Shown here: positions 2,617 to 6,614 of the stretch, piece after piece | Numbering within the stretch: position 1 is the stretch's first letter | How the letters are laid out: each line of letters opens with the position of its first letter | Assembly: GCA_030429345.1 (NCBI GenBank) | Contig: JAUIFJ010000006.1 | Location: 99,258 to 163,257 of the forward strand | Direction of reading: 5' to 3' | DNA length: 64,000 nucleotides | Origin: a bacterium | GTDB lineage: Bacteria; CAIWAD01 | Notes under the pieces: model-generated | The model's database searches: none | What the model was told of the DNA's origin: nothing | The model's input: only the letters and a program-made list of their open reading frames with translations | Position numbers and translations under genes: made by a program

Positions 2617-3087
2617 CTAGGCCGTGTTCAGGTGGCAGATGGCGGCGGCCAGGGCGTCGCTGGCATCCAGCGGCCGCACCTCTTTCGCCAGGCCGAGCAG
2701 GCGCGCGACCATGAAGGCCACCTGCTCCTTGTCGGCGCCGCCCCGGCCGGTGACGGCGCGCTTGATCTGCATCGGCGTATACTCGGCGACCGCCAGGCCC
2801 ATGCCCGTGCCGGCCAGCAGGGCCGCGGCGCGCGCGTGGCTGAGCTTGATCAGCGACTGCACGTTGGGGCCCTTGAAGACCTGTTCGACGGCGAGGCAGT
2901 CCGGCTCGTGCTGCTGGATCAGCTCCTTCAGCTGGCCGTGGATCACATCGATCCTCTCCGCCAGCTCCCTGCGTTCCTTTCCGGGACGGATCACGCCGTA
3001 TTCAAGGGGCTCGAGCCTCCGGGCCCTGCGCCTCACCAGGCCGTAGCCGGTGCAGGCCAGTCCCGGATCGATGCCCAGGACGATCAT
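2617..3087 (-). CDS. ruvC: Crossover junction endodeoxyribonuclease RuvC
   Basis: RuvC resolves Holliday junctions by paired nicks. The start at MIVLGIDPG is chosen because it places the first catalytic aspartate at residue 7, as in E. coli; the frame stays open upstream only as an out-of-frame shadow of yebC. The other acidic residues are visible in CLAVEQVF and in the C-terminal DASDALAAA pair. At 156 residues it is slightly shorter than E. coli RuvC (173). Its ATG overlaps the yebC stop by ATGA, showing translational coupling. Confidence 0.95.
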   Translation of the reverse strand: MIVLGIDPGLACTGYGLVRRRARRLEPLEYGVIRPGKERRELAERIDVIHGQLKELIQQHEPDCLAVEQVFKGPNVQSLIKLSHARAAALLAGTGMGLAVAEYTPMQIKRAVTGRGGADKEQVAFMVARLLGLAKEVRPLDASDALAAAICHLNTA

Positions 3088-3830
3088 TCCAGCCCGGCCA
3101 GGGCGTCGTCGTCCGCGTCGAAATTGCTGTAGACATTCTGCACGTCGTCCAGGTCCTCGAGGGCCTCGATCAGGCGCACCACCTTGGCCACGTCGTTGCC
3201 TTCGACACGTGTCGAGTTCTTTGGCTGCCGTGTCAATTCGGCTCCCTTGACCTCGAAGCCGGCCTCCTCCGCGCCCTTGCGCAGCTCCTCCAGGCTCGTG
3301 CGTTCGCAGTAGACCATCCAGTCCTCGTCGCCGTCCTCGATGGTTTCGGCGCCGTGATCCATCAGTTCCATCAGCACGTCGTCTTCTTCCTTGCCGGCCT
3401 TGGCCAGCGTCACCATGCCCAGCTGGTCGAAGTTCCAGGCCACGGCGCCATCGGCTCCCAGGCTGCCGCCATGCTTGTTCAGCAGGTGCCTCACCTCGCC
3501 GACGGTGCGGTTCTTGTTGTCGGTCATGGTCTCGACCATGATCGCCACGCCGCAGGGGCCGTAGCCTTCGTAGGTGATCTCCTCGTAGGTCACGCCTTCC
3601 AGGGTGCCCGTGCCCTTGGCAATGGCCCGCTCGACGTTGTTGGCCGGCATGTTGTTGGCCTTGGCCTTGAGCACCGCGCTGCGCAGGCGCGGATTGGCGT
3701 TCTCGTCGCCTCCGCCCAGGCGCGCGGCGATGGTGATCTCCTTGATGATCTTGGTGAAGATCTTGCCTCGGGCCGCGTCGGCGGCGCCTTTCTTGCGCTT
3801 GATGGTCGACCATTTGGAATGACCGGACAT
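3084..3830 (-). CDS. yebC: YebC/PmpR (TACO1) family translation/regulatory protein
   Basis: This family was described as a DNA-binding regulator and more recently as a factor that helps ribosomes through difficult (proline-rich) stretches. The 248-residue product begins MSGHSKWSTIKRKKG, the hallmark N-terminus, and carries the acidic central and C-terminal domains of the family (EDVLMELMDHGAETIEDG-like segment, then VEGNDVAKVVRLIEAL). The start is fixed by that motif; longer in-frame upstream codons are not needed. It is the first gene of the ruv operon, with the usual yebC-ruvC order, and a promoter candidate lies upstream. Confidence 0.96.
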   Translation of the reverse strand: MSGHSKWSTIKRKKGAADAARGKIFTKIIKEITIAARLGGGDENANPRLRSAVLKAKANNMPANNVERAIAKGTGTLEGVTYEEITYEGYGPCGVAIMVETMTDNKNRTVGEVRHLLNKHGGSLGADGAVAWNFDQLGMVTLAKAGKEEDDVLMELMDHGAETIEDGDEDWMVYCERTSLEELRKGAEEAGFEVKGAELTRQPKNSTRVEGNDVAKVVRLIEALEDLDDVQNVYSNFDADDDALAGLE

Positions 3831-3873
3831 GGGGCCTCCAGCGTGTGCGGTACGGAAAATTCGGGAACCTGCA

Positions 3874-3902
3874 AGTGTAGAAAAATCGGCTTCAAGGGAC
3901 AA
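3874..3902 (-). promoter_or_regulatory. Candidate sigma-70 promoter for yebC-ruvCAB
   Basis: Read on the minus strand there is TTGTCC, a 17-nt spacer and TACACT, about 45 bp upstream of the yebC start. Both hexamers match the consensus at 4 of 6 positions with ideal spacing. This was found by eye only. Confidence 0.4.
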
Positions 3903-4016
3903 GAATCACGCGTCGCCGCAATGGTTCTCCGGTGAGTGCGGAATCGAAGAGTGGACTTTCCCGCAAAAGGGAGGGAGATTGGGCCGATTGATCCGGGTCT
4001 CGCCGTCTGCTTTGAC

Positions 4017-4033
4017 AAGGGAGGTGCCACATC
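4017..4033 (+). promoter_or_regulatory. Strong Shine-Dalgarno leading to an AUC start codon
   Basis: AAGGGAGGTG is followed by 4-5 bases and then ATC, in frame with the YhgN-like protein. There is a TGA in the same frame at 4013, and between it and the first ATG (4082) there is no ATG, GTG or TTG. The ATG at 4082 has no ribosome binding site and would cut off most of the first membrane helix. This decides for initiation at AUC, or else for a sequence error here. Confidence 0.6.
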
Positions 4034-4639
4034 TTCGACTGGACAGCCATCGGCCAGGCGTCCCTGACCCTGTTTTTCGTCATGGACCCGCTGGGCAACA
4101 TCCCCATTTTCAATTCCGTGCTCCAGGACATCGCGCCCGCCCGCAGAACGCGGATCATCGCCCGCGAGAAACTCTTCGCCCTGGCGATCCTCCTGCTCTT
4201 CCTGCTGCTGGGGCCGGCCCTGCTGCGCTTCCTGGGCCTGAGCCAGAGTTCGCTCTATCTCTCCGGCGGGATTCTGCTGTTCATCATTGCGCTGAGAATG
4301 ATCTTTCCGCAGCCCAAGCCCCTGGCCGCGCCCGAGCGCGAGGAACCCTTCATCGTGCCGCTGGCGGTGCCGATGGTCGCCGGCCCCTCAACGCTTGCGA
4401 CCCTGCTGCTTTTCAGCAGCTCCCGTCCGGATCTGTTGGCCTCCTGGGTGCTGGCCCTGCTCCTGGCCTGGCTGGCCGGCACGCTGATTCTCGTTTCGAG
4501 CCCGATCCTGATGCGCTGGCTGGGGCCCCGCGGCCTGAAAGCCATCGAACGCCTGATGGGCATGCTGCTGATCCTGCTGGCCGTGCAGATGTTCCTCAAC
4601 GGCCTGACCCAGTACGTACACGGCGAGTACCTGCCCTGA
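4031..4639 (+). CDS. MarC/YhgN family integral membrane protein
   Basis: This is a polytopic inner-membrane protein of the MarC family; the biochemical function of the family is unproven (YhgN is sometimes called an NAAT-type transporter). The core reads MDPLGNIPIFNSVL, then about six hydrophobic helices with EEPFIVPLAVPMVAGPSTLATL and ERLMGMLLILLAVQMFLNG, matching E. coli YhgN closely in motif order. From the ATG at 4082 it has 185 residues. YhgN has about 14 residues before the MDPLGN motif, and the upstream in-frame sequence supplies the matching hydrophobic stretch (ASLTLFFV), so I place the start at the AUC after the strong ribosome binding site, giving 202 residues. It is a single gene facing the methyltransferase tail to tail. 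Confidence 0.85.
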   Translation: MFDWTAIGQASLTLFFVMDPLGNIPIFNSVLQDIAPARRTRIIAREKLFALAILLLFLLLGPALLRFLGLSQSSLYLSGGILLFIIALRMIFPQPKPLAAPEREEPFIVPLAVPMVAGPSTLATLLLFSSSRPDLLASWVLALLLAWLAGTLILVSSPILMRWLGPRGLKAIERLMGMLLILLAVQMFLNGLTQYVHGEYLP

Positions 4640-4710
4640 GTCGCTATCGACGACGGACCTTGCTACCCCTTTTCCAAGGAAGTACCGTTTGCGGTTGCTT
4701 CAAGTCGTCC

Positions 4711-5535
4711 TCATTCTCTTGTCGCCCCCAAGGCATACATCAGCGGAAACTGTGCTTCAAGGCCCTTCATCCTCCAGCGGCGGTGTTCGGCCTTGACCAT
4801 CAGGGCATGCATCCTGTAGGTCGAGAAGTCGACCTCGCGCAGGAAGTCGATGCGCAGGCCGGCGGCGCACAAGGCGCTGATCACCTCGCCCAGGTTCCAG
4901 CTCCACTCGTGGCTCACGGTCCGAATGGGATTTCCCGGATCGGCATAGCTGCCGGTGTCCTCGAAGACCAGGGGATCGCGGTGAGGGAAGTAGGGGTAGC
5001 GGGGCGGCAGGGGCAGCTCTTTGGCCTCGTCGTCGAAGACTCCGAAGAAGGGGTGGTATTCGAAGAGCAGGAACCGCCCGCCGGGCTTCAGGTGGGTCGC
5101 CACCGTTTCCGCCCAGGCTTTGAGGTCGGGCAACCAGCAGAGCACGCCCTCGGAGGTGAAGACCCGGTCGTACTCCTTTGCATGGCTCTGGCCCAGGCGC
5201 AGCACATCGGCCTGCAGGAACTCGGCCTCCAGCTGCGTCTCGCGGCTCAATTGTCGGGCCAGCTGAATGGCCTCGCCACTGAAATCGACCCCGCAGACCT
5301 TCGCTCCTCGTCGGGCCCAGGCCAGGGTGTCCATGCCGAAATGGCATTGCAGGTGGAGCAGCTCCAGGCCGTCGACCGGGCCCATGAGCTCCAGGCAGAG
5401 CGGGTCCAGGTTGTCCTGCCCCTGGCGGAAGCCTTCCAGGTCATAGAGAGCGCTGTCCCGGTTGATGGCAACCAGCGAGTCCCACATGCGGCGGTTGCCC
5501 TGCAGGGCGCTTTCTGGATCGGTCTTCTTCATCAT
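4711..5535 (-). CDS. Class I SAM-dependent methyltransferase
   Basis: The protein has 274 residues with a Rossmann-type methyltransferase core: motif I region LLHLQCHFGMDTLAWARRGA, an acidic end of strand 2 in VCGVDFS, the FLQADVLRL segment, and motif IV/post-I region DRVFTSEGVLCWLPDL followed by KPGGRFLLFEYHP. The motif I lacks the common GxGxG form, as in many small-molecule methyltransferases of this group. The substrate cannot be told. Its ATG overlaps the stop of the upstream phosphoesterase gene by ATGA, so the two are co-translated, but this does not reveal a shared pathway. Confidence 0.85.
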   Translation of the reverse strand: MMKKTDPESALQGNRRMWDSLVAINRDSALYDLEGFRQGQDNLDPLCLELMGPVDGLELLHLQCHFGMDTLAWARRGAKVCGVDFSGEAIQLARQLSRETQLEAEFLQADVLRLGQSHAKEYDRVFTSEGVLCWLPDLKAWAETVATHLKPGGRFLLFEYHPFFGVFDDEAKELPLPPRYPYFPHRDPLVFEDTGSYADPGNPIRTVSHEWSWNLGEVISALCAAGLRIDFLREVDFSTYRMHALMVKAEHRRWRMKGLEAQFPLMYALGATRE

Positions 5536-6614
5536 GGGACGATGTCCTCCCGGGCTTTCAGACGAAGTTCCAGCAAGGCGCCCGCCTCTTCGAGCTTCCC
5601 CAACCGGGCCGCGCTGTCTGGATCCAGTGCAAGCGGATGCTCGAGATAGATCCAGCTATCTTCTTGTACATCATGAATATTTTCAGACAACCATTTCTCC
5701 ATCTCAGCCGGATGCCTGCAGCAGGTTTCGGGCAAAAGGGCTCTCACCTGGTGACGGGCGGGAAGGGGAAGCCAGTGCAGCTCGGGCTGCGTAATTCTGC
5801 CGGATCGTAGGGCCTCGATGGACCAGTCCAGCAGACAAAACCCTTTCTGCTCATCGACTTCGGCGAAACTGGTGCGCTCCGTGCTTCCCGGAAAGAGCAC
5901 CGGCGGCCTTCCCTCGGCAGACAAAAGCTGCGCCCGATGCAGGTGCCCGCTGAGCACCAGGTCCCATCCCGGCGAAAGCGCCTGCCAATCAATGACTTCT
6001 CCACCCGGGCGAAAGCGGTATCCCGCGGGGCCGACCCGGCTCTGCGAGAGCAGCTGGTGCAACAGAAGCAGATGCAGCGTCCCCGGCTCCCTGCGCGCCC
6101 GGCAATCCTTCTGCAGGAGCGGCACCTGGACCGCCGCCTCGCGCACGAATGGGATCCCCATGATTTTCAATGAGATTTGCTGCAGATCCCACTCCAGCAC
6201 ACCGGGCCGATGGAAGATGTGCAGCAGAGGGTCCTCGTCGAAGAGGGACTGGGGAATCCGCGATCGTTCATGGTTACCCGGCAGCAGGGCCACGGGCAGG
6301 CCCTCACGACAGCAATCCAGAAGAGGTTCAAGGGCTTGCGAGAAGACTCCCTGGGGAATGCGGCTGCGATAGCACAGATCCCCCAGGTGCAGGATGCCGT
6401 CGACCTTCGCAGCGCGTATTCCGGCCAGGGCCGCCCGGTAGCAGCGCCAATGGTCCTCGCCTCTGCGCTTCAAACGGGAACGCGCCGTCCGCGCATTCCA
6501 GCCCATGCCCAGGTGCGTATCGCTGAGCACCCCAAGCCTCAGGATCCCTGCCGCTTTGACAGGAATCTCGTCAAGGGGTCTCTCGGCCCATAGCTGGCGG
6601 TTTTCATGATTCAT
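5532..6614 (-). CDS. Calcineurin-like metallophosphoesterase (SbcD/Mre11-like fold)
   Basis: This is a two-metal phosphoesterase of 360 residues. All five metal-binding blocks are visible: SDTHLG (D32, H34), HLGDL (D79), GNHE (113-116), a lone His in LLLHQLL (about 186) and GHLHRAQ (H224, H226). The order and spacing resemble the SbcD/Mre11 nuclease domain, but no SbcC partner is nearby, so DNA as substrate is not assured. The last 100 residues have no recognised domain. There is no clear ribosome binding site: the inverted-repeat element begins only about 8 bp before the ATG and may have replaced the native upstream region. Downstream it overlaps the methyltransferase. Confidence 0.85.
   Translation of the reverse strand: MNHENRQLWAERPLDEIPVKAAGILRLGVLSDTHLGMGWNARTARSRLKRRGEDHWRCYRAALAGIRAAKVDGILHLGDLCYRSRIPQGVFSQALEPLLDCCREGLPVALLPGNHERSRIPQSLFDEDPLLHIFHRPGVLEWDLQQISLKIMGIPFVREAAVQVPLLQKDCRARREPGTLHLLLLHQLLSQSRVGPAGYRFRPGGEVIDWQALSPGWDLVLSGHLHRAQLLSAEGRPPVLFPGSTERTSFAEVDEQKGFCLLDWSIEALRSGRITQPELHWLPLPARHQVRALLPETCCRHPAEMEKWLSENIHDVQEDSWIYLEHPLALDPDSAARLGKLEEAGALLELRLKAREDIVP

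Follow-up and report, generated by a model that had tools for sequence, protein, structure and literature searches.

An apparent AUC start codon in a yhgN/marC-family gene of a bacterium from the CAIWAD01 lineage

Translation of a yhgN/marC-family gene from a bacterium of the lineage CAIWAD01 appears to start at an AUC codon at position 4031 of the window, by which we mean the whole 64,000-nt stretch of DNA that was analysed. We assign this reading a probability of roughly 0.86. An AUC start had been proposed for the gene in an earlier, sequence-only reading, and that proposal is now supported by the N-termini of homologous proteins, by the Shine–Dalgarno (SD) sequence and by other genes with AUC starts. 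The matter is of practical consequence, as gene callers restricted to ATG, GTG and TTG would either drop yhgN or trim 17 residues, including the first helix, from its product.

The yhgN/marC locus and its start codon

The features of the locus are collected in Table 1. In the yhgN frame, which closes at the TGA at 4637–4639, no ATG, GTG or TTG codon is present between the TGA at 4013 and the ATG at 4082, including the region near the homologous start, and on this point the sequence-only reading was accurate. The gene on the other side of the leader, which we take to be yebC-like from a reading of its sequence, is divergent, and yhgN is therefore free of translational coupling to an upstream gene.

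Table 1. Features of the yhgN/marC locus (positions in the window)
Feature	Position	Strand	Basis
In-frame TGA stop, bounding the N-terminus	4013..4015	+	Read from sequence
Shine–Dalgarno AAGGGAGGTG, core GGAGGTG at 4020–4026	4017..4026	+	Sequence; anti-SD duplex −15.0 kcal/mol
ATC (AUC), proposed start codon	4031..4033	+	
Integral membrane protein of the yhgN/marC family (202 aa, counting the AUC codon as residue 1)	4031..4639	+	Profile matches; structure model
ATG of MDPLGN, first canonical in-frame codon, implausible as start	4082..4084	+	SD absent; helix 4–18 lost
yebC-like divergent neighbour (MSGHSKWSTIKRKKGA...)	3084..3830	−	Frame; name read from sequence

The 16S rRNA 3′ end of the source genome is canonical (GGATCACCTCCTTT) and carries the standard anti-SD sequence. 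The contiguous exact match to it is the 7-nt GGAGGTG, the whole of AAGGGAGGTG being the consensus with one additional G, and 6 nt separate the last G of GGAGG from the ATC, within the 5–9 nt looked for in an extended SD at an AUN start. The anti-SD duplex energy was −15.0 kcal/mol before the ATC versus −0.4 kcal/mol at the ATG at 4082, so that both the SD claimed immediately before the ATC and the claimed lack of a ribosome binding site at 4082 were borne out. Of the 1207 gene starts called in 2.27 Mb of this genome, 0.75 % have a duplex of −15 kcal/mol or lower, as do 0.07 % of random positions; the SD before the ATC is no chance match. It is partly paired in the predicted leader fold, a point against initiation at the ATC. 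A search of the leader against Rfam gave no match to a regulatory RNA and the predicted fold was no better than those of shuffled sequences, and searches of the leader for a sigma-70-like promoter and a terminator found neither.

Other sites that might feed the frame are TTC at 4034, CTG at 4064 or 4070, and GTG at 4024 followed by a frameshift, and we consider it extremely improbable that any of them does so. The TTC, like the ATC, has a usable SD spacing, and we know of no gene that starts at UUC. The GTG belongs to a +1 frame that stays open over a long distance but sits within the SD itself, and that frame (3829–5649) spans the whole gene and beyond, as chance gives at high GC. The two CTG codons are without an SD (−3.8 and −2.5, respectively). 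The AUC at 4031 is exactly where a coding-potential model retrained on the source genome placed the coding boundary.

The MarC-family product and its N-terminus

The yhgN product is a member of the MarC membrane protein family, with a full-length match over the curated cut-off. Pfam MarC (PF01914) matched with an E value of 1.2e-54 and 185.3 bits (cut-off 23.9), covering profile positions 2–201 of 203 and residues 5–194, and TIGR00427 scored 119.6 bits, above its cut-off of 99.2; the best equivalog match, NCBIfam YhgN (NF008010), scored 200.5 bits, below the 215-bit equivalog cut-off. The whole-length match and the conserved motifs are thus common to the window protein and the YhgN/MarC family (PF01914, TIGR00427), whereas the proposed start differs, the relatives using ATG, usually 13 residues before the MDPLGN motif, and yhgN ATC. 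In the 24 homologues with an N-terminus readable by the motif, an in-frame ATG precedes the MDPLGN methionine by 13 codons in 22, by 15 in one (L047) and by 23 in L031, the closest relative found (58–59 % identity), which comes from a gammaproteobacterial metagenome genome. Read from the ATC, yhgN has 17 residues before this methionine, which is residue 18. As the homologues carry 13–23 residues at this point, and as such an extension can here be supplied only upstream of 4082, where the ATC with its very strong SD is the one site resembling a start, the AUC reading is supported. The sequence-only reading had put the extension of family members at about 14 residues; it was right that the upstream frame supplies one, while the lengths are those given above.

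An AlphaFold2 model built from 16 sequences had a mean pLDDT of 85.9, rising to 92 over the first 20 residues, and placed the first helix at residues 4–18, so that a start at 4082 would remove this helix entirely. The earlier expectation that most of it would be lost was therefore correct as to the loss and too cautious as to its extent. Leu14, which is invariant in the alignment and lies upstream of the MDPLGN methionine, would also be lost. A search of solved structures found no relative. The ATG at 4082 is the first canonical in-frame start, yet a short form of the protein starting there would have no SD, would lack its whole first helix and would lack an extension present in all readable homologues, and we give it almost no credence.

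No yhgN orthologue was present in the other four genomes of the phylum examined, and the distant homologues use ATG. This absence, together with the gammaproteobacterial origin of the nearest relative, suggests that yhgN was acquired horizontally. The same two observations would fit a gene that has recently lost its start codon and is decaying after transfer, but the 202-codon frame is intact, every invariant column of the alignment is retained and a very strong SD is still present, all of which make decay very unlikely compared with an intact gene translated from AUC.

AUC starts elsewhere in the genome and family

As a control within the source genome, 2.275 Mb (54 % of the genome) was read and 1603 genes were called. 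AUC starts proved rare, at about five in this portion. In infC, on another contig (G000:C9:97828-, L076), the first canonical start is a GTG within the conserved domain; AGGAGG is followed after 8 nt by ATC GCC AGA and then by a normal IF3 N-terminus. In two relatives from the same family (L208 and L209), ATC GCC AGA is found in the same place behind AAGGAG, with a tandem ATC ATC, and the family's infC start appears to be AUC. In lspA, encoding lipoprotein signal peptidase (signal peptidase II; G000:C13:162842-, L210–L213), each of the four family genomes has ATC-ACA-CG preceded by an SD-like stretch and lacks a canonical start nearby, with a stop two codons upstream of the ATC in the source genome and four codons upstream in G002. 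The first canonical codon of lspA in the source genome is 15 codons downstream of the ATC, inside the first membrane segment, and the Pfam Peptidase_A8 match of the product begins at residue 9. This appears to be an AUC start outside infC that is common to four genomes; it suggests that selection keeps AUC starts outside infC in some lineages, and it provides a natural setting in which to ask whether genes other than infC are regulated through IF3 discrimination.

Two further genes can be set beside these. An ABC-exporter gene (G000:C8:64051-, L218) has ATC at the alignment position occupied by ATG, ATG and GTG in three relatives. In a lipoprotein-like gene, the ATC overlaps the upstream stop (AAAGGAG aagcgc TGATC) and is followed by RLRSLLLLGILLLAGC, with no canonical start for 42 codons; its relatives align to the later part only and it has no Pfam match, which makes it a weaker case. 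Duplex energies, for which the median over all genes was −6.4, were −10.3 at infC, −8.7 at the lipoprotein-like gene, −6.1 at the ABC-exporter gene and −5.2 at lspA, beside the −15.0 of yhgN, and a strong SD is therefore not universal among the AUC genes.

These genes bear on the possibility that a sequencing, assembly or strain-mixture error has obscured an ATG (or GTG or TTG) at 4031. Consensus errors in drafts occur at about one per 10^4–10^6 bases. The source genome is a draft of 92 contigs in which a single base decides the matter, and the SD and spacing at 4031 match an ordinary strong gene start; infC, lspA and the ABC-exporter gene, however, also have AUC on comparative evidence, giving a prior of a few such starts in 1600 genes, and the remainder of the yhgN frame is intact. 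We consider such an error unlikely, though the least so of the alternatives to a genuine AUC start.

Across the genome, an SD-filtered count gave a modest excess for AUC (6 of 92, versus 205 of 7571, or 2.7 %, for all codons). With a combined start score applied genome-wide, AUC was indistinguishable from control codons and showed no excess; the coding boundaries of the hexamer model are probably too fuzzy for such a score. Several near-cognate candidates were set aside, two of them (C38:4793 and C1:23494) because a canonical start lies closely downstream, others (the CTG cases on C14 and C15, C46:17603, C40:98830 and C51:18361) because a canonical start lies upstream, and, provisionally, C21:47275 because an SD is absent. 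What is proposed is AUC initiation in a few genes and not an altered code.

A separate observation from the same genome concerns a thioredoxin-like frame on the plus strand of contig C44 (at about 72770), which reads VLINFGATW-TGA-PACNTEF and has its in-frame TGA at the expected first cysteine of the CxxC motif. A tRNA-SeC is encoded at C59:9815-9912, and together the two make a selenoprotein likely.

Initiation at AUC and known non-canonical starts

One initiator-type anticodon stem, CAU, was found per genome in all four family genomes, and a special GAU initiator tRNA, which none of the four contains, was rejected. With CAU as the sole initiator stem, decoding of AUC would fall to the ordinary initiator tRNA, mismatched at the third position. 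Our working hypothesis is that the extended SD would hold the 30S subunit with its P site over the AUC, that the initiator tRNA would pair there with the first two bases and leave a C·C mismatch at the third, and that the yhgN protein would begin with fMet and not with Ile. Rescue of a mismatched start codon by a strong SD is a known mechanism and would probably operate here under discrimination by IF3, which in vitro selects against weak pairs at the third position (PMC10158994). As with infC, initiation at yhgN may then be limited by IF3 and fall below that from AUG, and we infer that yhgN would be weakly expressed and IF3-sensitive, the transporter being kept low and rising when IF3 is scarce. 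A broader proposal would have AUC regularly serve this little-sampled lineage as a minor start codon beyond infC, in a small, partly conserved, IF3-sensitive set of genes (infC, lspA, yhgN, the ABC exporter and perhaps the lipoprotein-like gene) whose expression rises when IF3 is limiting; we offer it tentatively and are inclined to doubt it.

Like infC genes, which have AUU, AUC or AUA starts, yhgN would combine a near-cognate AUN codon with a good SD, and the organism's own infC has the same codon; infC is autoregulated by its own product, as established for E. coli, whereas the membrane protein encoded by yhgN is not known to have any part in initiation. E. coli infC and pcnB start at AUU (cited in PMC9410913), and pcnB resembles yhgN in having a translation-limiting AUN start outside infC but is an unrelated gene and uses AUU where yhgN would use AUC. 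In S. aureus, AUA or AUU starts are used by infC, cvfC1 (AUU), ccpN (AUA) and citZ (AUA), with extended SDs predicted for infC, cvfC1 and ccpN; the starts of cvfC1, ccpN and citZ were shown by Ribo-Ret and by reporters, which gave roughly 10–30 % of the AUG level (PMC13009471). The pairing of a near-cognate AUN codon with an extended SD recurs in yhgN, although the S. aureus genes use AUU or AUA and the AUC of yhgN is proposed from sequence; the starts of cvfC1 and ccpN are conserved (PMC13009471), whereas the four other genomes of the phylum offer no yhgN orthologue for comparison. With its proposed AUC start, yhgN joins the known class to which infC, pcnB and S. aureus cvfC1 and ccpN belong.
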